A stretch of 64,000 nt of DNA from Endozoicomonas sp. G2_2. GTDB lineage: Bacteria; Pseudomonadota; Gammaproteobacteria; Nevskiales; Salinisphaeraceae. Position 1 is the first letter of the stretch. The number at the start of each line of letters is the position of its first letter. The notes below the pieces were generated by a model. That model did not search any database. It had not been told where the DNA came from and saw nothing but the letters and a program-made list of their open reading frames with translations. A program made the position numbers and the translations under genes. Shown one piece after another: positions 3,204 through 36,267 of this stretch. The stretch is from the NCBI RefSeq assembly GCF_017744135.1, contig NZ_JAGHQU010000003.1:248001-312000 (forward strand), given 5' to 3'.

Positions 3204-4673
3204 ATGCCTGGAATCAGTGGACTGGCACTCTATCTGCCGCCATACCGTGTGCAGCTTGCCGACTGGTGTGAATGGAACGACCAGCCCTGGGACAAGATCC
3301 GCAATGTCGTCGGGCGCAGTTTCCGCATGCGCGGCCCGGAGCAGAGCGTGTACACGCTCGGCGCGAACGCAGCCTGGCGGCTGATACAGGCCTACGATAT
3401 CGACCCGCGCGAGGTGGGTTACCTGGCGCTCGGCACCGAGTCGAGCAGCGACAATTCCGCGGGCGCGGTGATCGTGAAAGGCATGCTCGACGACGCGCTG
3501 GCCGCGCACGACATGCCGGCGATGTCGCGCGAATGCGAGGTGCCGGAGTTCAAGCATGCCTGCCTGGGCGGCGTGTATGCCATGAAGGCGGCGCTGCGCT
3601 ATCTCGCCACGGACGGGGCGGGGCGCAAGGCGATCGTTGTGTGTTCGGATATCGCCGAGTACGAACGCGGCAGCAGTGGCGAACCCACCCAGGGCGCCGG
3701 CGCGGTCGCGATCCTGCTGGAAGCCGAACCGCAATTGCTGCACGTCGATCTGTCGCGCGCGGGTAGCGCCTCGGATTACCGCATGGTCGATTTTCGCAAG
3801 CCGTTCGCGCGTTTTCGCGATCAGTCTCCGCGCACGGACGGGCAGATGCAGGATCTGCCGGTGTTCAACGGCCGCTATTCCACCAGCTGCTATGTCGACG
3901 CCACCCGGCATGCCATGAACGCAATGCTTGCCCGCCAGCCGGATCGAAACCCGGATTATTTTCATGCGGTGGACGCGGTATTCATGCATCGGCCCTATCA
4001 CCGCATGCCGGCCGCCGGCTGGGCCATGGCCTGGCTGTTCGCGCTGGCCGACGGCGACGATGCCGCGCGTGCCGAGCTGCGTGAATACTGCACGGCCGCG
4101 GATATCGACCCCGAAGCTTTGTTCGCCGAGATCGCCGGCGCGGCGCCGGACATGCGTCGGCGCGTGCGCGAAGGCGCCAGCGGCGACGATGCCTTTCCGC
4201 TGGCGAGCCTGCTCCTTCGCCACCTGCGGCGCACGGACGTCTGGGATCGCGTGGTCGCCGGCAAGCTGTCGCTCGGCAGTGAGATGATGCGCGATCTGGG
4301 CAATCTCTACACCGCGGCACTACCGGCCTGGCTTGCCGCGGGGTTCGTCCAGGCCGCCGAGGACGGCCTCGACCTGGCCGGCCAGCGCTGGCTTGCGCTG
4401 GGCTACGGCAGCGGCGATGCCGCCGAGGCGCTGCCCATGCGGGTGGCGAGCGACTGGCGTGCCGCAGCGATGCGGATCAACTTTCATGAGGCGCTCGGCA
4501 CGCCGAAGGATCTCGATCACGATCAGTACGCCGCGCTCCACGATGGTCGCCCGGCGGCGTTGCAGCCGGTGCCGGCGCACGACGAGTTCGTCGTCGACCA
4601 TATCGGCGAGATCGACCGCCCGGATTTTCGCGACACCGGCATCGAGTATTACCGCTACGTCGCCGCGTCCTGA
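3204..4673 (+). CDS. mvaS: HMG-CoA synthase family protein
   Basis: Condenses acetyl-CoA with acetoacetyl-CoA to HMG-CoA, feeding the adjacent reductase. It is a thiolase-fold protein. The expected catalytic triad is visible: Glu in GTESSSDNS, Cys in FKHACLGG and His in FMHRPYHRMP. At 489 residues it is longer than the ~390-residue Gram-positive enzymes. Starts at ATG 3204 with a weak purine-rich ribosome site. Divergent from mvaD-PMK-mvaA, so the window holds four of the pathway enzymes. A related HMG-CoA-synthase-like enzyme of another pathway is possible but unlikely given the context. Confidence 0.88.
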   Translation: MPGISGLALYLPPYRVQLADWCEWNDQPWDKIRNVVGRSFRMRGPEQSVYTLGANAAWRLIQAYDIDPREVGYLALGTESSSDNSAGAVIVKGMLDDALAAHDMPAMSRECEVPEFKHACLGGVYAMKAALRYLATDGAGRKAIVVCSDIAEYERGSSGEPTQGAGAVAILLEAEPQLLHVDLSRAGSASDYRMVDFRKPFARFRDQSPRTDGQMQDLPVFNGRYSTSCYVDATRHAMNAMLARQPDRNPDYFHAVDAVFMHRPYHRMPAAGWAMAWLFALADGDDAARAELREYCTAADIDPEALFAEIAGAAPDMRRRVREGASGDDAFPLASLLLRHLRRTDVWDRVVAGKLSLGSEMMRDLGNLYTAALPAWLAAGFVQAAEDGLDLAGQRWLALGYGSGDAAEALPMRVASDWRAAAMRINFHEALGTPKDLDHDQYAALHDGRPAALQPVPAHDEFVVDHIGEIDRPDFRDTGIEYYRYVAAS

Positions 4674-4678
4674 GATCG

Positions 4679-4717
4679 CGCCATCGCGGGCCGGTTTGAA
4701 ACCGACCCGCGATGGCG
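4679..4717. terminator. Hairpin between convergent mvaS and aldo/keto reductase
   Basis: The inverted repeat CGCCATCGCGGG / CCCGCGATGGCG encloses a second inverted repeat CCGGTTT-GAAACCG. It sits just after the mvaS stop and before the stop of the opposing gene. There is no T-run. It is probably a bidirectional terminator or RNA-stabilising hairpin. Confidence 0.55.
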
Positions 4718-4734
4718 TCCGCCGGCGGGCCTGT

Positions 4735-5775
4735 CTAGGGGCAGGGGTTCGGATTGTCGGCGTGGATTGCCTCGATCGATTCGATCAGCTCGTCTGAGAG
4801 CTCCACGTCGGCGCTGGCGATATTGGTTTCCAGCTGTTCCATCGTGGTCGCGCCGATGATGTTGGACGTCAGGAAGCTGCGGCTGTTCACATACGCCAGC
4901 GCCATCTGCGCCGGATCGATGCCGTGTTTCTGCGCGAGCGCAACATAGTCGGCCGTCGCCTGGGTGCCGCGCGCATTGGTATAGCGCGAGAAGCGCTCCC
5001 AGCGCGTCAGGCGGGCGCCCTCCGGCGCCGCGCCGTTCAGATACTTGCCGGTGAGCATGCCGAACGCCAGAGGCGAATAGGCCAGCAGTCTGACGTCCTC
5101 GCGCTCGGCGCATTCTGCCAGGCCGGCTTCGAAGGTGCGGTTGAGCAACGAATAGGGGTTCTGAATCGAGACCACGCGCGGCAGGTTCTCGGTTTCGGCC
5201 GCGCGCACGTAGCGCATCAGACCCCACGGCGTTTCATTGGAAATGCCCACACAGCGAACCTTGCCCTCGTCGACGAGGCGGCCGAGCTCGCCGAGGGTCT
5301 CCTCGATCGGCACGGCGTCGTCCTCTTCGTTATGGACGTAGCCGCGCTTGCCGAAGGTGTTGGTCGAGCGATCCGGCCAGTGCACCTGGTAGAGGTCGAG
5401 ATATTCCGTGTGCAGGCGTTCGAGGCTGGCTTCGATCGCGCTGCGGATCTGGCGCGGTGTGAGGCGCGTCTCGAAGCCGTCGCGCAGGTAGTCCATCTTC
5501 GAGCGGCCGGTGACCTTGCTGGCCAGCACCACGTCGTCGCGTCGTCCCGATGCCGCCAGCCAGGAGCCGATGTATTCCTCGGTGCGGCCCTGGGTGTCGG
5601 CCTTGGGCGGCACGGGATACATCTCGGCGGCATCGATGAAGTTCACGCCCTGGTCGAGCGCGTAGTCGATCTGGCGGTGGGCCTCGTCCTCGGTGCTCTG
5701 CTCGCCGAAGGTCATGGTGCCGAGACAGATCCGGCTGACGTCGATATCGCTGCGGCCGAGTTTGCGGTATTGCAT
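4735..5775 (-). CDS. Aldo/keto reductase (Tas-like)
   Basis: A 346-residue NADP(H)-dependent aldo/keto reductase of the Tas/YajO group. The tetrad residues are visible: Asp and Tyr in DAAEMYP, Lys in LASKV and His in YQVHW. The sequence opens MQYRKLGRSDIDVSRICLGTMTFG, typical of the group, and has the long loop after DAAEMYPVPP seen in Tas. The physiological substrate cannot be inferred. It converges with mvaS; the phosphoribulokinase gene lies 43 bp upstream on the same strand, so co-transcription is possible. Confidence 0.88.
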   Translation of the reverse strand: MQYRKLGRSDIDVSRICLGTMTFGEQSTEDEAHRQIDYALDQGVNFIDAAEMYPVPPKADTQGRTEEYIGSWLAASGRRDDVVLASKVTGRSKMDYLRDGFETRLTPRQIRSAIEASLERLHTEYLDLYQVHWPDRSTNTFGKRGYVHNEEDDAVPIEETLGELGRLVDEGKVRCVGISNETPWGLMRYVRAAETENLPRVVSIQNPYSLLNRTFEAGLAECAEREDVRLLAYSPLAFGMLTGKYLNGAAPEGARLTRWERFSRYTNARGTQATADYVALAQKHGIDPAQMALAYVNSRSFLTSNIIGATTMEQLETNIASADVELSDELIESIEAIHADNPNPCP

Positions 5776-5818
5776 TGCAGTCTTTCCTGAGCGTTGGTCG
5801 AAGGGCGGCGCGGGGCGT

Positions 5819-6703
5819 CTAGCGCGACAGCGCGGCTTCGCGCTGTTCCAGCAGCCGCCGGATGATGGGGCCGATGATGATCTCGATCGCCATGCGCATC
5901 TTCGTGCCGGGCACCACCACGGTGTTGGGCCGCGACATGAATGACCCGTGGATCATGGTCAGCAAGTACGGAAAATCAACCGCCCAGCGGTTCGGATCGC
6001 GAAAGCGGATCACCACCATGGATTCGTCGGCGTTGGGTACGTCGCGCGCCACGAACGGGTTGGACGTATCCACCAGCGGCACGCGCTGGAAGTTCACGTC
6101 CGTACGCGAGAATTGCGGCGTGATATAGCGCACATAGTCCGGCATCCGCCGCAGGATCACCTTGGCGACGTCTTCGGGGGCATAGCCGCGCACGTCGATA
6201 TCGCGCCGGATCTTCTGGATCCATTCCAGGTTGATGGTCGGTACCACGCCGACCATGAGATCCACATGCTGCGCCACGTCGATCTGGTCGGTGACCACGC
6301 CGCCGTGCAGGCCCTCGTAGAGCAGCAGTTCGGTGTCGGACTCGATCGGTGCCCAGTCGGTGAAGGTGCCGGGCTCGCGGTCGAACTCGGCGGCTTCGAT
6401 CTCGTCGTGCAGGTAGCGCCGGGTTTCGCCGGTGCCACTGACGCTGTATTCCGCAAACAACGCCTCCAGCCGGTCGAGTACGTTGGCGCCCGGGCCGAAA
6501 TGGCTGAAGTTCTCGCCGCGAATCGTGGCGCGCCGCACGGCCTTGGCCATCTCCGGGCGGCTGTAGGCATGAAAGGCGTCGCCGTCGATGAAGGCCGCTT
6601 TCACGTGCAGCCGATGAAATATGTGTTCGAAGGCCGTACGCGCGGTTGAAGTGCCGGCCCCGGACGAACCGGTCACCGCCACGATGGGATGAATCACGGA
6701 CAT
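5819..6703 (-). CDS. prkB: Phosphoribulokinase / PrkB family kinase
   Basis: A 294-residue protein of the class I phosphoribulokinase family, which phosphorylates ribulose-5-phosphate in autotrophs. The P-loop GSSGAGTST is near the N-terminus. Other family motifs are FSHFGPGAN, YEGLHGGVV, NLEWIQKI, ITPQFSRTDVNFQRVP and VVDTSNPF-like sequence. The ATG at 6703 was chosen because homology begins with MSVIHPIVAVTG; the 71-codon upstream extension is unrelated. No RuBisCO or other Calvin-cycle gene is present. The sequence also resembles E. coli PrkB, a family member of unclear role in heterotrophs, so autotrophy should not be assumed. Divergent from dctP. Confidence 0.9.
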   Translation of the reverse strand: MSVIHPIVAVTGSSGAGTSTARTAFEHIFHRLHVKAAFIDGDAFHAYSRPEMAKAVRRATIRGENFSHFGPGANVLDRLEALFAEYSVSGTGETRRYLHDEIEAAEFDREPGTFTDWAPIESDTELLLYEGLHGGVVTDQIDVAQHVDLMVGVVPTINLEWIQKIRRDIDVRGYAPEDVAKVILRRMPDYVRYITPQFSRTDVNFQRVPLVDTSNPFVARDVPNADESMVVIRFRDPNRWAVDFPYLLTMIHGSFMSRPNTVVVPGTKMRMAIEIIIGPIIRRLLEQREAALSR

Positions 6704-6933
6704 GATGACGACAACTCTGAAGACAGGCGGGCCGCGGCGCAAATCATGGTTCGGCCAGGCCGAGAGCCTGGCTGGCGTGACCGGCCGACGACGGGAAAGG
6801 CCCGAAGATACCACCGACAAGCCGCTTCGCGGCAGTCCGGGATCGGCTGCATGCACCGATGGTTGGCTTGACAGCCACGGCCGGATGCCATGTAGTGAAT
6901 TCGAGTAATCATCCATCAGAACTAGGGGGAATC

Positions 6934-8142
6934 ATGCGCCTGATGAAGGCTTTTTCTACTTACTGTGCCGTCGGGCTGACCGCGCTGGCGCTCACGGCCT
7001 GCGGACAGTCGTCGTCCGACAGCGAATCGTCGGACGATAGCGCCGACGCGTCCGAGAGCTCGCAGACATGGCAGTTCGGTCTTGAGGAAATTGAAGGCAG
7101 TGTTCAGCACCAGTACGCTGTCGAATTCAAGGAGATGATCGAGGAGAAGAGTGGCGGCGACGTGACCGTCGAGCTGCTGCCCTACGGCAAGTGGGGTTCG
7201 AGCTATTCGGCGCTCTACGACGCGATTCAGGGTGGTTCCATCCAGATCGGTTTCGGTTCCGGCGCGCTGGGCGGCACGGTGCCGGAGTCTCAGCTGCTAT
7301 CGCTTAACTTCGTGACGCCCGAGGACGAGCGCCAGGCCGCCGAAGTACTGAACTCGGATGCCTTCCTCAAGAGCGATGCATGGCAGACCTCCTTCAAGGA
7401 GCGTGGTCTGGTGCCGTTGGCCGAGCTCACTGAGGGCTATCAGGTCTGGACCGCCAACAAGGAAATTCACACGCCCGCCGATATCAAGAATCTCGGCATT
7501 CGCGTGATGGACAACAGCCTGCTGCGTTCCACTTATCGCGCGTACGGCGCGTCGCCGATCACCATTGCCTACGGCGAGCTCTACAGCGCGCTTCAGCAGG
7601 GCCAGGCCGATGGCAACATCCAGCCGGTGTTCGCGCATGAGGAAATGGGCTTCTACGAAGTTCAGGACTACATGATTTTCGCCAAGCAGTCGCAGTTCGT
7701 GGCAACGCTGATGGGCAACCTCGATTGGTGGGAAGGCCTGTCGGACGAGCAGCGCACGATGGTCAATGACGTGACCAAGACGCTGGTCGATCGCGGCTAT
7801 GAGATCCAGAAGAAGTTCAACGACGAACGTCTGGAAACCATCAAGGAAGACGATATCCAGATCATCGAGCTGTCCGACGAGGAGCGCAAGCGGTTCCGCG
7901 AGATGTCCATGCCGGTACGCGACGTGTTCGTCGAAGAAGTCGGCGACCGTGGCAAGGCCGCCCTCGACACGCTGCTTGCCGAAACCGAGAAGGTCAGCGG
8001 TAACAGCAGTAACGACAGCAGCGCCAGCAGCCAAAGCGATGCGAGCGGCGACGACGCCAGTGCAGACGCTGAAAGTGGTAGCGGCGGTGAAAACGCGATG
8101 GAAGACGAAGAAAGCATGGAAAGCGCTGAAAGCGCCAACTGA
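6934..8142 (+). CDS. dctP: TRAP transporter substrate-binding lipoprotein, DctP family
   Basis: Extracytoplasmic solute receptor of a TRAP secondary transporter. The N-terminus has a lipoprotein signal with lipobox LTAC, so it is probably membrane-tethered. The DctP fold follows, with QIGFGSGALGG and the long central helix region. The ATG at 6934 follows a purine-rich AGGGGGA. The last ~50 residues are a low-complexity tail of Ser, Asp, Glu, Gly and Ala with almost no hydrophobics, unusual for this family; a short Ser/Asp-rich linker also follows the lipobox. The matching permeases are on the opposite strand and converge on this gene. The substrate is unknown. Confidence 0.9.
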   Translation: MRLMKAFSTYCAVGLTALALTACGQSSSDSESSDDSADASESSQTWQFGLEEIEGSVQHQYAVEFKEMIEEKSGGDVTVELLPYGKWGSSYSALYDAIQGGSIQIGFGSGALGGTVPESQLLSLNFVTPEDERQAAEVLNSDAFLKSDAWQTSFKERGLVPLAELTEGYQVWTANKEIHTPADIKNLGIRVMDNSLLRSTYRAYGASPITIAYGELYSALQQGQADGNIQPVFAHEEMGFYEVQDYMIFAKQSQFVATLMGNLDWWEGLSDEQRTMVNDVTKTLVDRGYEIQKKFNDERLETIKEDDIQIIELSDEERKRFREMSMPVRDVFVEEVGDRGKAALDTLLAETEKVSGNSSNDSSASSQSDASGDDASADAESGSGGENAMEDEESMESAESAN

Positions 8143-25177: not shown

Positions 25178-27616
25178 TCAGCGCGCGCGCACGATCCGCT
25201 GGCGTGCGCCGATACTGCTCGACAGCATCTCGAACGGAATCGGGCGCGCGACGTGATAGCCCTGCGCGTAGTCGATGCCGATCGTGCGCAGCGCATCCAG
25301 CAGTGCGCGCGACTCGACGTGTTCGGCCACGGTGAGCAGGCCCATGGCCTGGCCGACCTGGTTGATGGCCTCCACGATCGAGCGTTCGACCGGGTCCTGC
25401 AGAATGTTGGAGACGAGCTTGCCGTCGATCTTGATGAAGTCGGAGGGCAGGTTCTTGAGATAGGAGAACGAACTCAGACCGCTGCCGAAATCGTCGAGCG
25501 AAAACCGGCAGCCCAGCGCACGCAGGGAGCGGATCAGCTCGCCTGCCCGCCGCGTGTTGGTGACCGCGGTGGTTTCGGTGATTTCGAATACCAGGCGGCG
25601 CGGGTCGACGCTCGAGGCTTCGATCAGGCCACGCGCGTAGTCGACGAAGTGTTCGTCGGTGATCGATTGGCCGGAGATATTGATGCTGTAGTGCTCGATC
25701 GCCGCGTGGTCGTCGCCGGCGGCGGCGATCAGTGCCACGGCGCGCTTGAGCACCCAGCGGTCGATGCGGGCGGCGACGTTGTAGCGTTCCGCGGTGAGCA
25801 GGAAGTTCTGCGGCGAGAGAATGGCGCCGTCGCTGTCGCGCATCCGCAGGAGCAGTTCCACGCCGCAGCGGCTGTGGGTGCGCTGGTCGATGGGCTGGAT
25901 GATCTGGGCGAACAGTTCGAAGCGGTCGTTGTCGAGCGCTTCGCTGATCTGCTGCATGCGCTGCATGTCGCCGTGGCGCGTGAGCGTCTCGTCGCTGTCG
26001 CCGCGATAGATATAGACCTGGTTGCGGCCTTTTTCCTTGGCCAGATAACAGGCGGTGTCGGCGCGGCGCAGCAATTCCGTCGTGCTGACGGCCTCACGGT
26101 CGATGGCCGCCACGCCGATACTGGCGCCGAGGCGAAACAGCTTGTCGTTCCACCGAAAGCGGAACCGGTCGATCTCGGTGCGTAATGCTTCGGCCTTGAT
26201 CTTGGCATCGGTGAGCGACAGGTGACACATGATCAGCCCGAATTCGTCGCCACCGAGCCGGGCGAGCGTGTCGCCGACACGGATCTGGCTCGAGATCTGA
26301 TTGGAGATCTGGCGCAGCATTTCGTCGCCGGCGTCATGGCCGCAGGTATCGTTGACCAGCTTGAACTGATCGAGGTCCAGATAACACAGCGCGTGGTGAT
26401 GTCCTTGGCCTGTCTCGGCGAGAAACTCACCGAGCAGGTGCTCGAAGGCGCGGCGGTTCGGAAGGCCGGTCAGCAGATCGTGATTGGCCTGATGGGCCAG
26501 TTCCCGCGAGATCTGCTGCAGGCGGGTGATGTCGTGCAGCACGATGACCGTGCCCACCACGTGCTGATGGCTGTCGCGGATCGGCGAAATCGTGACCTTG
26601 ACGGTATGGCCGGTAGTCTGGGGCGCGCGATCGTAGAGGGTCAGATCTTCGTCGCGTTCCTGGATGGTGCCGGTGTTGAGACAGGCCTGAACCAGGCCGT
26701 TTGCGGTGATGTTGCGATCGTTGTCGACGACATTGCACAGGGTGTCGAAATGTTCGCCTATGGCATCCGCCGTGGGCACGCCCAGCATCTGTTCCGCGCG
26801 CGGGTTGAGGTAGTCGACCTCGCCATGAGCATTGGTGGTGATGACCGCATCGCCGATCGATGCCAGCGTGACCTGGGCGCGCTCCTTCTCATCGTCGAGC
26901 GCATGTTGGGTCTCGATCAGCCGGGTGCCGTCACGACAGACGCCTTCGCTGCCGATGGGCTGGCCATGCGCATCGTCGATACGACGCGAGGAAATCAGCA
27001 GCCAGGCGATGCTGCCGTCGCGCCGGAATACGCGCGTGGGGTGGCGGCGCAGTTGCGGACGTTCGAGCAGCGCCGGCTCGTCCTTTTCCGGGTCGGCCAG
27101 CAGGTCCCGCAGCAGCCGGCCCTCGAGTTCGGCGGGCCGGTAGCCGAGCATGTCGTTGACCGTATCGGTGATCCAGCTGATCCGGCCGCTGCTGTCGGTG
27201 TGGTACAGCACGTCGGTCACGTTGCGCAGCAGCCGCTGTACGCGCTGGTGGCGTACCAGCAGCTTGTCGCGATATTGCTGTACGCGATGCACGAGATTGT
27301 CGACGGTGGCAACCAGCTGGGAGTCGGCACCCTCGAGCGGTACCGACGGGCGCGGGCGGCTGTCGCCGGCCACGTCGATGTTCTCGAGCCAGGTCACGAG
27401 GGGGCTGATCATCCGGGCCCGGTCCGGATGCGTGGCACGCAGGCCGATCCAGCACAGCAGGATGGCTGCCAGGCTGGTGAAGGTCTCGATTGCGATAAGC
27501 AGTCCCAGGGCGAGCGCGCCGGGCTGACACGCAACCGTGAGACTGGCGATCTGTCCGGCCAGTACCGTTGCCAGCGCCAGGCGGATCGCCAGCCGGGGGT
27601 TTCGCAGCGTCTTCAT
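25178..27616 (-). CDS. PAS-GGDEF-EAL cyclic-di-GMP signalling protein
   Basis: An 812-residue membrane protein for c-di-GMP turnover. There are two N-terminal membrane segments (residues ~10-60), then PAS domains at ~130-230 and ~245-360. A GGDEF domain at ~375-540 has intact GGDEF and the I-site RVGD five residues before it. An EAL domain at ~560-800 keeps its key acidic and Lys residues: VELLLR, NISG, EITET, LDDFGSG, IKIDG, AEHVE and Q in YAQGY. Both synthesis and breakdown are plausible. It is divergent from the quorum-sensing kinase gene across 269 bp. Confidence 0.93.
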   Translation of the reverse strand: MKTLRNPRLAIRLALATVLAGQIASLTVACQPGALALGLLIAIETFTSLAAILLCWIGLRATHPDRARMISPLVTWLENIDVAGDSRPRPSVPLEGADSQLVATVDNLVHRVQQYRDKLLVRHQRVQRLLRNVTDVLYHTDSSGRISWITDTVNDMLGYRPAELEGRLLRDLLADPEKDEPALLERPQLRRHPTRVFRRDGSIAWLLISSRRIDDAHGQPIGSEGVCRDGTRLIETQHALDDEKERAQVTLASIGDAVITTNAHGEVDYLNPRAEQMLGVPTADAIGEHFDTLCNVVDNDRNITANGLVQACLNTGTIQERDEDLTLYDRAPQTTGHTVKVTISPIRDSHQHVVGTVIVLHDITRLQQISRELAHQANHDLLTGLPNRRAFEHLLGEFLAETGQGHHHALCYLDLDQFKLVNDTCGHDAGDEMLRQISNQISSQIRVGDTLARLGGDEFGLIMCHLSLTDAKIKAEALRTEIDRFRFRWNDKLFRLGASIGVAAIDREAVSTTELLRRADTACYLAKEKGRNQVYIYRGDSDETLTRHGDMQRMQQISEALDNDRFELFAQIIQPIDQRTHSRCGVELLLRMRDSDGAILSPQNFLLTAERYNVAARIDRWVLKRAVALIAAAGDDHAAIEHYSINISGQSITDEHFVDYARGLIEASSVDPRRLVFEITETTAVTNTRRAGELIRSLRALGCRFSLDDFGSGLSSFSYLKNLPSDFIKIDGKLVSNILQDPVERSIVEAINQVGQAMGLLTVAEHVESRALLDALRTIGIDYAQGYHVARPIPFEMLSSSIGARQRIVRAR

Positions 27617-27885
27617 CTCGCGGCGCGACGTGGCCCGCCGAGCGAGTGGGCGTGCGGATGCCGTGCGGGCGCTGGCCGGCGAGCGGACATGGCGGTTTGA
27701 TATCTCCCCGGGTCGGTGAACAGCCGCATTGAGTATAACCTTGCGCGCGAGATAAATAATCCGTGACCCCTGGTCATGCGGTCGATGCTACGAATTCAGG
27801 CCGTCGGCGTATAGGATGAACCGAGAGTTGGGACGTTTTGACTTCGTCGACGTGACATGTCGAATTTGCTGAGGGGACGCGCCGG
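27617..27885. promoter_or_regulatory. Divergent intergenic region, GGDEF-EAL gene / quorum-sensing kinase
   Basis: 269 bp with no convincing frame, holding both divergent promoters. It is more AT-rich than the surroundings around 27720-27870. Shared control of the two signalling units is possible but not shown. Confidence 0.5.
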
Positions 27886-29256
27886 GTGTTTTTTTCCCGA
27901 TCAATGACGTTGAAGACACCGCGTACGCCAGAAGCCTGGCGGCGGCTGCGCGTACGTCTGGCGGCTTCACTCGCCCAGAGTACGATCTACTCACGCGCCA
28001 ATATGCGGATGTTTGCCATCGTGGCGATTATCGGCCATCCGCTGTATTACCTGTGCTGGACGGAATTTCAGCCCCAAGGCTTCGAAAGCGCCTGGCTGCG
28101 GGCTTTCAGCGTGCTCATCGCCATACCCATGCTGTTCGAGCATCGATTGACCCGCCACGATTTCTGGCGCCGAAAAGTGACGCTTTACTGGTTTTTCATC
28201 GTCATATATCAGCTGCCATTCTTTTTTATATTCATGTCGCTGATGAACGAGTTTGCGACCGTATGGGCGCTGTCGACCATGGCTGCCTGTCTGCTGATGG
28301 TGCTGATCGTGTTCGACTGGCTCATGATTCTGGTCATGGCGGCCCTGGGCGCAGGCGCTGCCTGCGCCGTTTACGAACTGGTCGGCGGGGATCTGTCCGC
28401 GCAGTCCAGCGAAGTGTTGCCGCTGGTGCCGACCTATATCTTCGCGATCCTCGCGGGCAGCGCGTTCAACTACAAGACCGAGCTGGTGGCACGCGAGAAG
28501 CTGTCGGCCATCACCTCGGCCGTTGGGACGATGGCGCACGAACTGCGCACCCCGTTACTGGGCATACGCAGCGGCGCGCGCGGTTTGCAGAATTATTTGC
28601 CGTCGATCTTCGAAGGTTTCGAGATGGCGCGCGATGCCGGGCTCCCGGTCAAGCGCATTCGCACCGCCCACTACCGGCAGATGCACGCGGTTCTGGATCG
28701 CATCAATGCGGAAACCGAATACACCAATGTCATTCTCGACATGCTGCTGGTGAATTCGAGCCGTACGACCATCGACGAGACCTCGTTCGAGGTCACGCGC
28801 GTCGGCGCCTGCGTGGCAGCCGCGCTGGAGCGCTATCCGTTCCATTCGGCGCGGGAACGTGAACGCGTGCACTGGGAGCAGGGCGCCGATTTCGCCTTTT
28901 TCGGCTCGCAGCTGTTGATGGTTCATCTGCTGTTCAATCTGCTCAAGAACGCGCTCTATTTTCTGGCCCAGGCCGGGGATGACGACGGTGTCATCCGTAT
29001 CTGGACCGAGCGCAGCGGCGCGGGTGCGCATCGTCTGCATTTTCGAGACACCGGCCCGGGCATTCACCCTGATGTGCTGCCGCGAATATTCGAACGGTTC
29101 TACTCGGCGATGCCGCGCGGACAGGGTACGGGCATCGGCCTGGCCTTTTCGCGTCTTGTCATGGAAAGCTTTGGGGGCGATATACATTGTCATTCGGCGC
29201 AGGGCCGCTACACCGAGTTCGTGATGACTTTCCCGGCGGTGGAACGCGATGACTGA
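27886..29256 (+). CDS. lqsS: LqsS/CqsS-like membrane sensor histidine kinase
   Basis: A 456-residue sensor predicted to detect an alpha-hydroxyketone autoinducer. About six membrane segments span residues ~40-195, followed by a dimerisation/phosphoacceptor region with TMAHELRTPLLGIRSG (His218) and an ATPase with HLLFNLLKNAL (N box), DTGPGI and GTGIGLAFSR. Like LqsS and unlike Vibrio CqsS, it has no C-terminal receiver. It starts with GTG 27886 after GAGGGGA; ATG 27904 is an alternative. Its stop overlaps the response-regulator start by 8 bp. The function is inferred from the CqsA-like synthase next door. Confidence 0.85.
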   Translation: MFFSRSMTLKTPRTPEAWRRLRVRLAASLAQSTIYSRANMRMFAIVAIIGHPLYYLCWTEFQPQGFESAWLRAFSVLIAIPMLFEHRLTRHDFWRRKVTLYWFFIVIYQLPFFFIFMSLMNEFATVWALSTMAACLLMVLIVFDWLMILVMAALGAGAACAVYELVGGDLSAQSSEVLPLVPTYIFAILAGSAFNYKTELVAREKLSAITSAVGTMAHELRTPLLGIRSGARGLQNYLPSIFEGFEMARDAGLPVKRIRTAHYRQMHAVLDRINAETEYTNVILDMLLVNSSRTTIDETSFEVTRVGACVAAALERYPFHSARERERVHWEQGADFAFFGSQLLMVHLLFNLLKNALYFLAQAGDDDGVIRIWTERSGAGAHRLHFRDTGPGIHPDVLPRIFERFYSAMPRGQGTGIGLAFSRLVMESFGGDIHCHSAQGRYTEFVMTFPAVERDD

Positions 29257-30295
29257 TACCCGTCTTGCGCCCTATTTTCATCCGACGCAGATCGTGCTCG
29301 TCGACGACGACATCGACTTCCTGGGTAACCTGAGCCTGCAGCTCGAGGCCGATCTGCCGTACCTGCTTTTCGACTCGACCCACAAGGCGCTCGGTTATAT
29401 CAACGACCGTGACAGCGAAGCACCGTCACGACAGCGCTTCTTCAATTTCGATAGCCGGGGTACGGGCGGTAATGTGATAGGTGCGGCCGGTCATCGCGAA
29501 GTCAGCCTCGATACGGCGGCACTCGCACGGGAAATGCACTTCACCAACCGGTTCTCGCAAATCTCGATCGCCATGGTCGACTATGCGATGCCGCAGATGA
29601 ATGGCCTGGAGTTCTGCCGCAAGATCCGCAATCCGCATATCAAGAAGATTCTTTTTACCGGGGTCGCGACTGAGACCGAGGCCGTGGATGCCTTCAACAA
29701 TGGCGTGATCGATCGTTTCATCCGCAAGAACGAACACAGCGTCTACGAACTGCTCAATCGTACGATTCGCGAGTTGCAGCATGCCCATATTCTCGACACC
29801 TTCACCGCGGCCAGCGATGTCTTCGATGTCGAGGTGCCGGCGCTGCTTTGCGACGGCGCGGTCGAGAACCTGCTCAAGAATCTGAGGCCGCGTTACGAGT
29901 TCGTCGAGTATTACCTGGCCGATGATCCGTCGGGCTTTTTGCTGGTGGATGGTGACGGCGGACTCTATCGTCTGGTGATCGTCGATACCGCGGAACAATC
30001 GGCGCTCGCTGAGCGTGCAGCAGCCAATGGTGCGCCTGCCGACTGCCTCAAGCTGTTGAACACAGGCGACAATCTGCTTGACCCTACGCTGCTGATTGCG
30101 GCGCATAGCGTCACAAGTGACCCCTGGCGTCAGTGGAAGTCGCATATCCGGCCTGCGACTCGGTTGGAGGGTAAGCGCAGTTACCGCTGGGCGGTGTTCG
30201 ATTCGGGTCAACCGGACAGCGGCGTCGTGCCGCCGAACGCGACCTTCAATCGCTATCTCGAATGGCTGGATACGGTCGGCTATTCGCTGATGTAA
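29249..30295 (+). CDS. lqsR: LqsR-like response regulator
   Basis: A 348-residue atypical response regulator. Receiver residues are visible: the acidic cluster VDDDID (residues ~18-23), the phosphoacceptor Asp111 in MVDYAMPQMNG, Thr in LFTGVATETEA and Lys in FIRKNE. An insertion of about 50 residues sits between the first acidic cluster and Asp111. The C-terminal ~170 residues lack a DNA-binding helix-turn-helix or other known output. Length and architecture match Legionella LqsR. It is translationally coupled to the kinase by an 8-bp overlap. A role in relaying the kinase signal is inferred. Confidence 0.82.
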   Translation: MTDTRLAPYFHPTQIVLVDDDIDFLGNLSLQLEADLPYLLFDSTHKALGYINDRDSEAPSRQRFFNFDSRGTGGNVIGAAGHREVSLDTAALAREMHFTNRFSQISIAMVDYAMPQMNGLEFCRKIRNPHIKKILFTGVATETEAVDAFNNGVIDRFIRKNEHSVYELLNRTIRELQHAHILDTFTAASDVFDVEVPALLCDGAVENLLKNLRPRYEFVEYYLADDPSGFLLVDGDGGLYRLVIVDTAEQSALAERAAANGAPADCLKLLNTGDNLLDPTLLIAAHSVTSDPWRQWKSHIRPATRLEGKRSYRWAVFDSGQPDSGVVPPNATFNRYLEWLDTVGYSLM

Positions 30296-30628
30296 GCGCG
30301 TCCCGGGGTCCGCCCGATTGTGGGTGCGACACTGCCCGGGTTCTGATGGCCCTTGCGCCATAGGCGTTTTCCCGCCCGGTTGAACTCGGCGATTGATCGG
30401 ACCCGCTGCGAGCTGGGCAGCTGTGCTGGGCACGGCTGGCCAACGTGTGGCAACTCACTGGCTTATTGGGAAAAAAATACTTTTCGAAGTAATTGCCTAG
30501 CCCACTTGTACGAAACGAAATTTTGTTATACGTAGGATATGTGAAATGTATTTTGAGTGACAAAAATTGTCAATTCGAAATATCACAATTCTTCTTACAT
30601 TATTTCACGCCAACGACATGGGTTTGTC
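30296..30628 (+). promoter_or_regulatory. AT-rich upstream region of the autoinducer synthase gene
   Basis: 333 bp with no gene. From about 30465 to 30625 the sequence is strikingly AT-rich compared with the rest of the window, consistent with a regulated promoter or a nucleoid-protein-silenced region. It also contains a distant inverted pair GTGAAAT (30541-30547) / ATTTCAC (30602-30608). Confidence 0.6.
30558..30572. promoter_or_regulatory. Palindrome TGACAA-N3-TTGTCA, candidate operator
   Basis: Perfect 6-bp inverted repeat around AAA, 56 bp upstream of the synthase ATG. Its size and symmetry suit a dimeric regulator. No consensus is known to me; it is a candidate only. Confidence 0.4.
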
Positions 30629-31897
30629 ATGACTAATTCAAATATATCCAGCTGTTCGCCGCTTCGTCCGACGGCCATGCCGGAGCCGGATTTTCTGCGC
30701 ATGCACGTGGATCATTATTTCCGCGAGCGCGTCGAGAAGACCTGGAAAGGGGGGCATATCATGCACGGCCGTCAGCCCGGCCCGGATGCCGTGCTGATGG
30801 TGACCAACGACTATCTCGATCTCGCTAACCATCCGGAGGTTCTCCAGGCACAGATCGACAGCCTGCGCGGTTCCGACAACACGGTCGTGATGTCGGGCGT
30901 CTATCTGCACGGCGACAGCCCGCAGCTGCACCTGGAGCGCCGCATGGCCCGCTGGATGCGCATGGAGTCCAGTCTGCTGTGCCAGTCGGGCTATGCCGCC
31001 AACGTCGGCCTCATTCAGGCCATCGGCGCGCCGGGCACGCCGGTTTATGTGGACATGTTCGCCCATGCGTCGCTCTGGGAAGGCGTGCGCAGTGCCGGGC
31101 TCGAGTGGAAACCGTTCCGGCACAACGACCCGAGCCATCTCGAAACCATGATCGAGCGCAACGGCCCGGGCATCGTGGTGGTGGACTCGATCTACAGCAC
31201 CACGGGCAGCATTTCGCCGCTGGAGCAGATCGTGGATGTGGCGAATCGCCACGACTGTGTGACGATCGTGGACGAATCCCACTCCCTGGGCACCCACGGG
31301 GACCAAGGCCGCGGCCTGGTCGCAGGTCTCGGTCTGCAGTCGAAGGTGCACTTCGTGACCGCGAGTCTGGCCAAGGCTTTTGCTGGTCGGGCCGGTCTGA
31401 TCGCCTGCAGCGAAAGACTGCGTCAGTTCATCAAGTTCAACTCGTTCCCGGCGATTTTCAGCTCGTCGCTGCTGCCGCACGACATCGCCGGCCTGTCCCG
31501 TACGCTTGATCTGATCAAGGGCGCGGACCATGAACGCGAGCGTCTGCATGCCAACGCGGCTTATCTGCGACGCCATCTCGATGCGTTGGGGTACAACGTC
31601 GACAGTGGCCAGGCCCAGATGATTGCGCTCGAATCCGGCACCGAGGAGCAGACCATCGTGCTGCGGGATGCGCTCGAGTCGCGCGGGGTGTTCGGCTCGG
31701 TGTTCTGTGCGCCCGCCACGGCCACCAAGCGCGCGCTGATCCGGCTCTCGGTGAACTGCAACCACAGCTACGCGCAGCTCAGCCATGTCATCGACGTGTG
31801 CGCGGAGATTCGCGAAGAAGTGGATCTGGCGAATTGGCCGTCGACACGGCGCGCGAAGAAACAGCGTCGCTCGGCTGCCGCACAGGCCGCAGCCTAG
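30629..31897 (+). CDS. cqsA: CqsA/LqsA-like autoinducer synthase
   Basis: A 422-residue PLP-dependent alpha-oxoamine-synthase-type enzyme. CqsA and LqsA make alpha-hydroxyketone signals (CAI-1, LAI-1) from acyl-CoA and an amino acid or SAM. Motifs along the chain: NDYLDLANHPEV, SQ-like CQSGYAANVGL, VDMFAHASLWEG, VVDSIYSTTGSISPL, VDESHSLGTHG, the PLP Lys249 in TASLAKAFAGRAG, and ESRGVFGSVFCAPATATKRALIRLS, all closely CqsA-like rather than generic KBL/ALAS. The ATG at 30629 was chosen over an upstream AT-rich extension. It forms one locus with the kinase and regulator genes, but has its own upstream region. Confidence 0.9.
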   Translation: MTNSNISSCSPLRPTAMPEPDFLRMHVDHYFRERVEKTWKGGHIMHGRQPGPDAVLMVTNDYLDLANHPEVLQAQIDSLRGSDNTVVMSGVYLHGDSPQLHLERRMARWMRMESSLLCQSGYAANVGLIQAIGAPGTPVYVDMFAHASLWEGVRSAGLEWKPFRHNDPSHLETMIERNGPGIVVVDSIYSTTGSISPLEQIVDVANRHDCVTIVDESHSLGTHGDQGRGLVAGLGLQSKVHFVTASLAKAFAGRAGLIACSERLRQFIKFNSFPAIFSSSLLPHDIAGLSRTLDLIKGADHERERLHANAAYLRRHLDALGYNVDSGQAQMIALESGTEEQTIVLRDALESRGVFGSVFCAPATATKRALIRLSVNCNHSYAQLSHVIDVCAEIREEVDLANWPSTRRAKKQRRSAAAQAAA

Positions 31898-31906
31898 GTG
31901 CTGTCA

Positions 31907-31939
31907 CGAGCGCCCGGTCGTGGGGTGATCGGGCGCTCG
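31907..31939 (+). terminator. Hairpin after cqsA
   Basis: 10-bp stem CGAGCGCCCG / CGGGCGCTCG starting 9 bp after the stop. There is no T-run, so it may be a weak terminator or mRNA 3' end. Confidence 0.5.
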
Positions 31940-32015
31940 CACTTCGTACGGGTCGGGAATGTTTGTCGTCTGTGCCTGTCCGAGACTCAGGACTTCTCAG
32001 TATTAGGCAGCAGAC

Positions 32016-32222
32016 ATGGCCAATCTGGAAAAACTCAGCCGTGATACCGATACCAGCGTCGCGATCCTGCGCGCGATCGTCGAGCAGCGCGGCGATAAGA
32101 CCGACACGATCCTCGAAGCGCTGGAAAATCCCGAAGATTTCGACGCCATCGTCACGCGTGCCCGCGAGTATGCGCAGGACTCGGATGCAGCCCTGCGCTG
32201 GCAGGGGCGCGAGATTCTCTAG
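32016..32222 (+). CDS. Small acidic protein of unknown function, downstream of cqsA
   Basis: 68 residues starting MANLEKLSRDTDTSVAIL and ending ALRWQGREIL, rich in Asp and Glu and helix-forming, without Cys, signal peptide or membrane segment. It is preceded by GGCAGCAGAC, a weak ribosome site. It lies 118 bp after cqsA and before a hairpin, so it could be expressed with the quorum-sensing locus or alone. I do not recognise the family. Confidence 0.6.
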   Translation: MANLEKLSRDTDTSVAILRAIVEQRGDKTDTILEALENPEDFDAIVTRAREYAQDSDAALRWQGREIL

Positions 32223-34093: not shown

Positions 34094-35137
34094 TCAGCCG
34101 TTCACGGCGCCGCCTTCGGTCGGCCGTGAGCATTCGGCGAGGCCAGGGTCATCGGCACAACGAATCTTCTTGAGCAGATGCTGCATGCGGTGGTCGTACC
34201 ACTGTTCTTCCCAGAGCCGCTGCCGGATCTCCAGCAGCATGCCGCGATACTTGCTCTCGCGCTCGCCGCTGATATGGACCCAGTATCGATCGGGAATTTC
34301 GGCATCCGCCTGTCGGATACGCGGCAGAATGCGATCCCAGGCCTTGTTCGCCGCCCATCGTCGCGATTCGGCCGCGAAACCGGCAGGAAAGCGGTCGCGA
34401 TGGATGACCATCTGGGCCGAGAGCATCCCCAGCACGAAGTCGGCGACACCGCCGTCTTCGCCGAGGCCGCGGTATAGCTCGAGGGCGTTGTAGGCGATGG
34501 CCGGCGCATAGGCCATGTCGACGCTGTGGTTGTTGAACAGCGGGCCGAAGCTGGCGATGGTCGCGGGCACGGGCGAGGCGCCGGCCACGTTCGCGACCAC
34601 GCGCGCCTGCTTGTCGTAGCCGATCACGGCGACCTTCTTGCCGGCCGCGGCCTCGAGGCTGTCGAGAAAGCGCCGGTCGCGCGAGAACAGATAGACCTTG
34701 CCGCCGGGCACGACGCCGGCGACTTCGTATCCGCCGTTGCGCATCAGATCCGCGGCCTTGTCGCTGGCCATGACACGAATCGCGGTATGCATCTGGTCGT
34801 AGGTCTGGAGCGCGCCGACCATGTCCAGGCTGCCGGCGAACGGCACGAACTGCTTGGCGCGAATACCGGTAAGGCCGACGGCATCGCAGCGCCCGGACTT
34901 GAAGTCGTTGGCGGCCACGCCTTCGTCCGTATACGGGCGGAGGTCGAACTTCACGCCGGCCTCGCGTGCCATGACGACGTAATCCTGGAACTGCTCGATG
35001 ACGGCGCCGCTGGCTCCGACCGGGTCGTAAACACAGATCGAACGCTCGACCACGTCGTCGGCAACGGCGCTGTTCATACCGAGCGCGGCGAGGATTACCA
35101 ACGCGAGCGGCCAGCGGCAGCGAAATGGAAAGGGCAT
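34094..35137 (-). CDS. AdeT-like putative solute-binding protein (paralogue 2)
   Basis: A 347-residue exported protein with signal peptide ending about NSAVADD. It resembles Acinetobacter AdeT1/AdeT2, once described as efflux-related but structurally like periplasmic solute receptors. Visible shared blocks with the neighbouring paralogue are ICVYDPVGASG, DLRPYTDEGVAANDFKSGRCD, AGSLDMVG-LQTYDQ, AYAPAIAYNALELYRGLG, YWVHISGERESKYR and MQHLLKKIRC. Two C-terminal Cys may form a disulfide. Last gene of the TRAP-like cluster, placed after the terminator of paralogue 1. Substrate unknown. Confidence 0.8.
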   Translation of the reverse strand: MPFPFRCRWPLALVILAALGMNSAVADDVVERSICVYDPVGASGAVIEQFQDYVVMAREAGVKFDLRPYTDEGVAANDFKSGRCDAVGLTGIRAKQFVPFAGSLDMVGALQTYDQMHTAIRVMASDKAADLMRNGGYEVAGVVPGGKVYLFSRDRRFLDSLEAAAGKKVAVIGYDKQARVVANVAGASPVPATIASFGPLFNNHSVDMAYAPAIAYNALELYRGLGEDGGVADFVLGMLSAQMVIHRDRFPAGFAAESRRWAANKAWDRILPRIRQADAEIPDRYWVHISGERESKYRGMLLEIRQRLWEEQWYDHRMQHLLKKIRCADDPGLAECSRPTEGGAVNG

Positions 35138-35160
35138 GGCGGGCTCCGTGGGTCTCAACG

Positions 35161-35196
35161 AAAAAGCCCGTCGTGCACGCTCATGCACGACGGGCT
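35161..35196 (-). terminator. Rho-independent terminator after AdeT-like paralogue 1
   Basis: On the minus strand, a perfect 13-bp stem AGCCCGTCGTGCA / TGCACGACGGGCT with a 6-base loop, followed by TTTTT. It lies between the two paralogues, so the second is probably expressed at a lower level or from its own promoter. Confidence 0.9.
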
Positions 35197-35220
35197 GAAA
35201 GGTCCAGGGTCAGGCCGCGA

Positions 35221-36267
35221 TCAGTTGACCGGGCCGCCCTCGCTTTCCTGGCTGCATTCCGCCAGCCCGCTGTCGGTCGAGCAGCGAATCTTCTTGAGCA
35301 GGTGCTGCATGCGGTGGTTGTACCAGCCGTTGTCCCAGAGATCCTGACGGGTGTTGCGGAACATCTCGCGATAGTTCGCGTCACGCTCGCCGGAGATATG
35401 CACCCAGTACTTGTCCGGAATGTCGCTGTCGGCGCTTTCCACGCGACGCAGGGTGGAGTCGAACATGTTGTTGAACACCCACTCGCGCGACTTCTGGCCG
35501 AAGCCGTCGGGGAACTTGTCCTGGTGGACGACCAGCTGACCCGAGAGCATGCCGAGCACGAAGTCCGCGATGCCGCCTTGCTCGCCCAGGCCCTTGTAGA
35601 GTTCGAGCGCGTTGTAGGCGAACGACGGCGCATAGGCGAGATCCACGCTGCCGTTATTGAACATCGGCCCGAACGAGGCGATGGACGCACCCACCGGCGA
35701 TGCGCCGGCGACGTTGGCGAGCGTCGAGGCCTGCTTGTCGTAGGACATCACCGCGATCTTCTTGCCGGCGATGGTATCCAGGCTTTCCAGATACCCCTTG
35801 TCGCGGCCGAACAGGAATGCCTTGCCCAGCGGCACCACGCCAACGACTTCATAGCCGTCCGACTGCATCAGATCCGCCGCCTTCGGGCTCGACATCACCT
35901 TGATGGCGGTCTTTTCCTGGTCATAGGTCTGCAGGCCGCCGGCCATGTCGAGGCTGCCGGCGAACTTCACGAAATGGATCGCGCGCACGCCGGTGATGCC
36001 GACCATGTCGCACTTGCCCGCCTTGAAATCGTTGGCGGCCACGGCTTCATCGGTATAGGCACGGGTATTGAACTTGATACCCCATTCGCGCGCCTGCACG
36101 ACGTAATCCTGAAAGGACTGGTAGATAAAGCCGTTCGCGCCGATCGGGTCGTAGATGCATAGCGAGCGGGTTTCTTGCGCCGCAGCCGGCTGCATCGCGC
36201 TGCCGAGCAGGGCAGCGGCGCCAACAGCGACCGCGCCGAGATAGGACGTCATTTTTCTGGGTAGCAT
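35221..36267 (-). CDS. AdeT-like putative solute-binding protein (paralogue 1)
   Basis: A 348-residue exported protein, clearly paralogous to the gene at 34094-35137. The signal peptide ends around QPAAAQE. Blocks: LCIYDPIGANGFIYQSFQDYV, TRAYTDEAVAANDFKAGKCD, FAGSLDMAGGLQTYDQ, LAYAPSFAYNALELYKGLGEQ, KYWVHISGERDANYREM and MQHLLKKIRC. The ATG at 36267 follows GGAGGAAG. It lies 84 bp after the fused TRAP permease, which suggests it is the receptor for that permease. Substrate unknown. Confidence 0.84.
   Translation of the reverse strand: MLPRKMTSYLGAVAVGAAALLGSAMQPAAAQETRSLCIYDPIGANGFIYQSFQDYVVQAREWGIKFNTRAYTDEAVAANDFKAGKCDMVGITGVRAIHFVKFAGSLDMAGGLQTYDQEKTAIKVMSSPKAADLMQSDGYEVVGVVPLGKAFLFGRDKGYLESLDTIAGKKIAVMSYDKQASTLANVAGASPVGASIASFGPMFNNGSVDLAYAPSFAYNALELYKGLGEQGGIADFVLGMLSGQLVVHQDKFPDGFGQKSREWVFNNMFDSTLRRVESADSDIPDKYWVHISGERDANYREMFRNTRQDLWDNGWYNHRMQHLLKKIRCSTDSGLAECSQESEGGPVN

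Follow-up and report, generated by a model that had tools for sequence, protein, structure and literature searches.

A probable alpha-hydroxyketone-type quorum-sensing cassette of Salinisphaera that includes a cyclic di-GMP enzyme gene

A 64,000-nucleotide stretch of the genome of Endozoicomonas sp. G2_2 (contig NZ_JAGHQU010000003.1, positions 248,001 to 312,000, forward strand; "the window" denotes this whole stretch) encodes a synthase, a sensor kinase and an LqsR-type regulator together at one locus, which raises the question of whether this bacterium makes and senses a ketone signal and, if so, what the signal controls. The source genome, of 3.73 Mb in 33 contigs, is counted here among the Salinisphaera genomes. 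The locus is very probably an alpha-hydroxyketone-type quorum-sensing cassette of Salinisphaera, like those of cholera autoinducer 1 (CAI-1) and Legionella autoinducer 1 (LAI-1), with a probable cyclic di-GMP (c-di-GMP) output. Taken singly, Lqs-type quorum sensing is held with marginally greater confidence still, and c-di-GMP as the main output is proposed tentatively, with doubt slightly outweighing belief. The lqs system is a known and widespread family, and the variant described here consists in a one-strand gene order and a GGDEF-EAL gene within the block. In the window this four-gene block is flanked by genes for a lipocalin and a sodium:alanine symporter, and its parts are the following (aa, amino acids; PLP, pyridoxal phosphate):

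25178..27616, minus strand: PAS-PAS-GGDEF-EAL protein of 812 aa, a putative diguanylate cyclase/phosphodiesterase, divergent to the kinase; part of the block (domains, motifs, synteny)
27886..29256, plus strand: LqsS/CqsS-type sensor histidine kinase of 456 aa, GTG start, no receiver domain, with His218 and Phe194 (Pfam domains, CqsS alignment, motifs)
29249..30295, plus strand: LqsR-family response regulator of 348 aa, a receiver domain (Asp111) and an LqsR output domain (domains, 6sy9 match, model)
29819-30292, plus strand: output domain of the regulator, modelled separately
30629..31897, plus strand: CqsA/LqsA-type PLP-dependent autoinducer synthase of 422 aa from ATG 30629, with PLP Lys249 (family profile, structure match)

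The synthase open reading frame (ORF) opens at GTG 30557 (30557-31897, plus strand, 446 aa). Because the match to the family model NF005526 begins at ORF residue 39, ATG 30629 is the likely start, and the PLP lysine is therefore numbered Lys249, as in the initial annotation. Against NF005526, "alpha-hydroxyketone-type quorum-sensing autoinducer synthase," the protein scored 589 bits, where the cut-off is 428. Models of related families stayed below their cut-offs (in parentheses): BioF 233 bits (426), serine palmitoyltransferase 215 (500), 5-aminolevulinate synthase (ALAS) 181 (339) and two glycine C-acetyltransferase (KBL) models 200 (460) and 178 (493). The initial annotation had called the synthase CqsA-like and had named grouping with KBL, ALAS or BioF as the contrary outcome; no model of these families reached its cut-off, and that identity was rejected. 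When solved structures were ranked by the synthase, Vibrio CqsA (3hqt) came first at E 8e-112, followed by serine palmitoyltransferase as the next family at 8e-43. Lys249 aligns with the PLP lysine of CqsA, and seven of the nine residues reported to line the CqsA acyl pocket (list from the accessible part of PMC3285556) are identical in an alignment read by hand, the exceptions being V32, replaced by Met, and F79, replaced by Tyr. All motifs quoted in the initial annotation were found in the sequence, namely VVDSIYSTTG, VDESHSLGTHG and ESRGVFGSVFC in the synthase, HELRTPL in the kinase and VDYAMPQMNG in the regulator. By profile and structure ranking, the protein is a member of the CqsA/LqsA family.

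The kinase carries HELRTPL at residue 218, the N-box NLLKNAL at 351, DTGPGI at 388 and GTGIGL at 414. In Pfam searches HATPase_c scored 77.6 bits and HisKA 21.5 bits, the latter under the cut-off of 26.9 although HELRTPL is intact. The N-terminal sensor half aligned without large gaps to CqsS of V. campbellii (locus L134) through the final helix. As judged from these matches, the protein is an LqsS/CqsS-type membrane sensor with HisKA and HATPase domains after the sensor, as initially proposed. Its earlier description as a six-segment histidine kinase stands as to the kinase and is weakly checked as to the segments: a Kyte-Doolittle profile, a crude hydropathy measure, gave seven overlapping peaks, readable as about six segments at a threshold of 1.2 and as two at 1.6. 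A search of the window genome at E ≤ 1e-25 returned no second LqsS/LqsT-like kinase. In V. campbellii CqsS the residue 24 positions before the phosphorylated histidine is a Phe, 175 from the ORF start. This agrees with V. harveyi Phe175, which corresponds to V. cholerae Cys170 and sets the preference for signal tail length according to the accessible part of the published work. The window kinase has Phe194 at this position. The counterpart is Phe in nine of 11 Salinisphaera kinases (the window and eight of 10 other loci), Cys in L020 and Ile in L024; among 66 scored kinases from outside the genus it is Ala in 41, Phe in nine, Val in five, Tyr in five, Ser in four and Thr in two. By analogy with the Vibrio rule, Phe194 would predict that the signal's tail is shorter than in systems where this residue is small; the expected length is below that of LAI-1 and closer to C8.

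The regulator gene begins 8 bases before the end of the kinase gene. Its product matched Legionella LqsR (structure 6sy9, identified as LqsR through the title of the entry) nearly end to end, over residues 10-342 at E 5.7e-48, and scored 35.2 bits against Response_reg (cut-off 30.2). An alignment of 48 family members showed D19, D111 and K160 to be invariant and D20 and T137 to be present in 90% or more; all five are in place in the window protein. The AlphaFold2 model of the full protein (predicted local distance difference test score, pLDDT, 89.7) had LqsR as its best structural match, with a Foldseek E of 1.8e-28, template modelling (TM) scores of 0.74/0.83, and a Z of 30.5 at a root-mean-square deviation (rmsd) of 3.0 over 304 residues; the family search with this whole model was otherwise dominated by receiver domains. 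When the output domain was modelled alone (pLDDT 89.2), LqsR again ranked first (Z 10.0, rmsd 3.6, 147 residues). A profile built from 43 output domains, other family members included, found 6sy9 at 3e-46. These sequence and model matches identify an LqsR-family regulator consisting of a receiver and an LqsR output domain; as initially described, it has phosphoacceptor Asp111 and no recognizable DNA-binding domain. For the output domain, the next fold matches after LqsR were to the small lobe of kinases of the APH/RIO type, with Z of 6.1 or less; they are too weak to interpret and perhaps reflect a common arrangement.

The three genes are conserved throughout the lqs-bearing members of the genus. 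Of 14 Salinisphaera genomes, 11 have a synthase above the NF005526 cut-off, as compared to none of 47 other genomes of the family and order. A sample of 369 genomes from across the class contained eight above the cut-off, including two from Salinisphaera. Ten further Salinisphaera loci (L020 of genome G002, that of G006 and others) served as the comparison set, and in all 11 loci, the window included, kinase, regulator and synthase lie in this order on the same strand with open frames. In quick trees of the single genes (49 rows each), the 11 Salinisphaera rows formed one clade in all three, with a Shimodaira-Hasegawa-like approximate likelihood ratio (SH-aLRT) of 100; deeper branching carries long-branch warnings, and nothing was drawn from it. 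Loci outside the genus were taken from a named genome collection in which at least 562 stretches held a synthase relative at E ≤ 1e-3; the best 80 (at least 52% identity) were kept, five of them from Salinisphaera, leaving 75 named loci. All three genes are present in 67 of the 75, the other eight being incomplete, mostly at contig ends. The synthase is convergent with kinase-regulator in 66 of the 67 complete loci; the sole exception, Variovorax L099, has synthase-kinase-regulator on one strand. The window's order, noted initially as unlike that of Legionella, was therefore seen in none of the 67. The accompanying description of the host as an unexpected genome did not hold, and a rare or unexpected system was rejected: although the class-wide count is low, most Salinisphaera genomes carry the synthase, the accessible literature describes lqs clusters as widely distributed among Proteobacteria, and a survey of 6,937 proteobacterial genomes reports LqsR orthologs in 310, including 87 from Gammaproteobacteria (PMC10653808, accessible part). 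Salinisphaera is not named in the accessible main text of that paper, whose Table S5 and figure may list the genus, and a search of the accessible literature found no paper joining Salinisphaera with "autoinducer"; seven mention the genus together with quorum sensing. No LuxI-type synthase was found in any of the 14 Salinisphaera genomes.

Several related loci depart from the three-gene pattern. Genome G100 (L035) encodes a second synthase-like protein, below the cut-off. In Trinickia terrae (L078), a second kinase-like gene and a second, divergent LqsR-like gene (4516-5994 and 6698-7714) lie just before the lqs locus. Plasmid pTM3 of Tistrella mobilis (L136), typed as conjugative, carries a CqsA-type synthase with no kinase or LqsR homolog found within 6 kb, possibly an orphan signal maker. 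Chlorobium ferrooxidans (L126), which lies outside Proteobacteria, has a CqsA-type synthase and an 859-aa kinase ORF on the same strand; no LqsR was found there.

The locus shares features with several known systems. Like the window, Legionella pneumophila has a synthase, a receiver protein with LqsR output and a kinase without a receiver domain, ordered lqsA-lqsR-hdeD-lqsS (PMC3376566, accessible part). In the window, by contrast, kinase, regulator and synthase share a strand, hdeD is absent and the block includes a GGDEF-EAL gene; its genome gave no second LqsS/LqsT-like kinase in the search described above. With the Vibrio Cqs system it shares the synthase family and a kinase sensor region that aligns to the final helix, but the V. 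campbellii CqsS ORF is longer (690 aa, as compared to 456 aa), and no LqsR homolog was found beside it. The hybrid CqsS of Vibrio feeds LuxU/LuxO. The Jqs system of Janthinobacterium, an environmental bacterium, likewise has three genes (JqsA, JqsS, JqsR) with an LqsR-type regulator, but its order by locus tags is jqsA, jqsS, jqsR, and the accessible part of PMC3566124 mentions no c-di-GMP gene. Clusters in Nitrococcus, Alcanivorax, Paraburkholderia and others contain the same three genes, some with a GGDEF gene nearby; they differ in the convergent synthase and in GGDEF proteins with other N-terminal parts. PhcX of Ralstonia solanacearum belongs to the LqsR family, as does the window regulator, but is uncoupled from lqsA/lqsS and adjoins phc genes (PMC10653808, accessible part).

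The initial annotation took the fourth gene of the block, for a c-di-GMP enzyme, as a hint of lifestyle switching on the ground of adjacency. The motifs of its product look intact: the I-site (RxxD) reads RVGD at 446, GGDEF stands at 455, the EAL motif reads ELL, and the motifs farther along the EAL domain are present. All 10 other Salinisphaera loci have a GGDEF-EAL ortholog next to the kinase and divergent from it (one is cut by a contig end), with identities of 55-76%. At E ≤ 1e-150 exactly one ortholog was found in each of the 11 lqs-bearing genomes, and none in the three Salinisphaera genomes that lack lqs or in three other members of the family. The block occupies two chromosomal sites. 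At site 1, it lies between the lipocalin and symporter genes in the window and in L021, L022, L023, L027 and L028; L025 shows the symporter side only and L020 the lipocalin side only, and its genome, G002, gave no symporter match at E ≤ 1e-60. Site 1 is closed in all six genomes examined, three without lqs (G009, G010, G013) and three with lqs elsewhere (G001, G006, G008), where lipocalin and symporter genes are direct neighbors inside the same larger gene order. At site 2, in G001, G006 and G008, the block is bordered by an M19 dipeptidase gene on one side and by a gene that matches nothing in Pfam on the other; judged by the match ends of the flanking genes, which lie approximately 110 bp apart, this site is closed in G009, G010 and G013. 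The junctions are too diverged for placement at the level of bases. Because the four genes share two sites, each closed elsewhere, the GGDEF-EAL gene is not a chance neighbor; it is part of the lqs block, with the same gene-level boundaries at both sites. The block may have moved once or been gained twice. Synteny thus upholds the initial association as far as membership of the unit.

A mechanism consistent with these observations can be outlined. The synthase would condense a medium-chain acyl-CoA with S-adenosylmethionine, or with an amino acid; the product, a hydroxyketone or aminoketone as suggested initially, would then be released from the cell. The acyl-CoA and S-adenosylmethionine chemistry is proposed by analogy with CqsA (PMC3285556, accessible part). 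The membrane kinase would sense this ketone, presumably by binding it, and control phosphorylation of the LqsR-type regulator at Asp111, in whichever direction the phosphate is transferred. Output of the regulator would pass, directly or indirectly, through the divergent GGDEF-EAL enzyme, such that cell density would set c-di-GMP and hence attachment or motility. In a more specific version, the block would be a density-to-c-di-GMP converter in which the phosphorylated regulator acts on the GGDEF-EAL enzyme directly, with no transcription factor, and the Lqs regulators of other lineages (the Alcanivorax group, Paraburkholderia, Nitrococcus) would each act in this way on the unrelated diguanylate cyclase that their lineage carries; we consider this version unlikely. 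The system adds a salt-adapted genus, outside the well-known Lqs/Cqs pathogens, to a known signaling family. How LqsR acts after phosphorylation is described as unsettled (PMC10653808, accessible part), and the block offers in its GGDEF-EAL enzyme a concrete candidate partner.

Alternative explanations differ in which part of this mechanism they deny. An ordinary alpha-oxoamine synthase (KBL, ALAS, BioF or serine palmitoyltransferase) lying beside an unrelated two-component system would have the same fold and PLP chemistry, and models of those families do score up to 233 bits. However, all of them remain under their cut-offs while NF005526 is exceeded by 161 bits, and the synthase recurs with LqsR- and LqsS-type genes in 67 of the 75 named loci outside the genus; we regard this explanation as close to impossible. 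The locus could also be decayed or eavesdropping, having once signaled and no longer making its own signal, as might be imagined from the three Salinisphaera genomes without a synthase. Open frames and key residues in all three genes, frames open in the 10 other loci as well, and a synthase that is the most conserved of the three proteins (e.g., 87% identity versus 74% and 71% in L021) make this highly improbable.

A weightier alternative accepts quorum sensing as real and has the regulator work through other partners, the GGDEF-EAL gene being a passenger kept by a shared promoter or by chance. Legionella provides a precedent in that LqsS reaches c-di-GMP indirectly, through the transcription factor LvbR, Hnox1 and Lpg1057 (PMC11237717, accessible part). 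GGDEF genes are moreover numerous in genomes, and 51 of the 75 named loci outside Salinisphaera have none within 3 kb. Conversely, the enzyme accompanies lqs in all 11 genomes that carry it, over two sites with no relation to each other and with identities of 55-76%, and unrelated GGDEF proteins adjoin lqs loci in the Alcanivorax group, Paraburkholderia and Nitrococcus. Taken together, the passenger explanation comes near to an even call, falling just short of it.

Several points weigh against the cassette as outlined, and most of them concern its c-di-GMP step, which is proposed from gene linkage. The window genome alone has 32 GGDEF matches. LqsR showed no diguanylate cyclase activity in vitro, and its output domain is reported as diguanylate cyclase-like with a degenerate motif (PMC10653808, accessible part). 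Our comparisons did not recover this likeness and do not disprove it: the output-domain profile set against eight GGDEF domains gave a probability of 0.1 and E 0.45, none of 43 output domains matched Pfam GGDEF at E ≤ 1, and no GGDEF chain was among the 50 fold matches listed for the output domain, an absence that excludes nothing. On the signal side, the CqsA-compatible residue set of the synthase fixes neither substrate nor product. Genomes G009, G010 and G013 have no GGDEF match at E ≤ 1e-10, as compared to 19 to 50 in the 11 lqs-bearing genomes; because these three have no GGDEF at all, their lack of the GGDEF-EAL enzyme is not independent evidence. When GGDEF neighbors were counted over merged lineages, five of 26 had one under a lenient rule (at least half of loci; 1.19 expected, P 0.006) and three of 26 under a strict rule (more than half; P 0.11).

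The same counts bear on whether c-di-GMP neighbors are a general rule of lqs loci. A GGDEF gene lies within 3 kb in 24 of the 75 named loci outside Salinisphaera, in seven of seven of the Alcanivorax group, 12 of 19 of one Paraburkholderia cluster, two of four of the Nitrococcus cluster and single cases, and by their N-terminal parts these proteins fall into three or more unrelated types. When loci were grouped by synthase identity, P was 1e-6 to 2e-5, a result in which the Alcanivorax group was counted several times; with lineages merged and a 1-kb limit, P was 0.026 and 0.14. The tests were devised after the pattern was seen, GGDEF densities come from measurements on the window genome and 40 of the 75 others with the remainder given the average, and GGDEF genes at the loci were sought with a single-sequence query that may have missed some. 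The excess was not accepted as proof of a rule, and after lineages are merged it is no more than suggestive. Titles found on lqs and diguanylate cyclases suggest no report of such a neighborhood, which is not proof of unpublished status.

Further observations touch on the distribution of GGDEF genes around lqs. In the Alcanivorax-group loci L113, L114, L124, L125, L128, L132 and L133, the GGDEF gene is divergent from the synthase ORF, and its start lies 162-487 bp away. The 14 Salinisphaera genomes have either both lqs and the c-di-GMP network or neither, and the joint absence from three genomes may be a single event. G015, which belongs to a different genus in the family, carries a LuxI-type synthase and 20 GGDEF matches and has neither lqs nor the GGDEF-EAL enzyme.

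Between and beyond the four genes, three further features of the locus were recorded:

27617..27885, no strand: intergenic region separating the divergent c-di-GMP and kinase genes, a candidate shared promoter region (position only)
30558..30572, no strand: palindrome TGACAAAAATTGTCA, a candidate operator or 5' leader element/hairpin, about 60 bases before the synthase ATG
32016..32222, plus strand: ORF of 68 aa, 3' of the synthase, kept in five of 10 other Salinisphaera loci

No conserved motif was recognized between the c-di-GMP gene and the kinase in an alignment of the genus, promoter and terminator scans did no better than shuffles, and an Rfam scan of the window returned no RNA except one tRNA. 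The pattern TGAC-N3..9-GTCA occurs near the place of TGACAAAAATTGTCA in six of 11 Salinisphaera loci, as compared to a mean of 0.41 of 11 in simple shuffles, and anywhere upstream in five of 82 other loci. The 68-aa ORF has no Pfam match; its five counterparts, at 50-62% identity, all lie at site 1, and it possibly belongs to the site-1 version of the block. Elsewhere in the window (34094-36267), two tandem genes for AdeT1/2-type solute-binding proteins adjoin a fused 709-aa tripartite ATP-independent periplasmic (TRAP) permease with a DctM domain.

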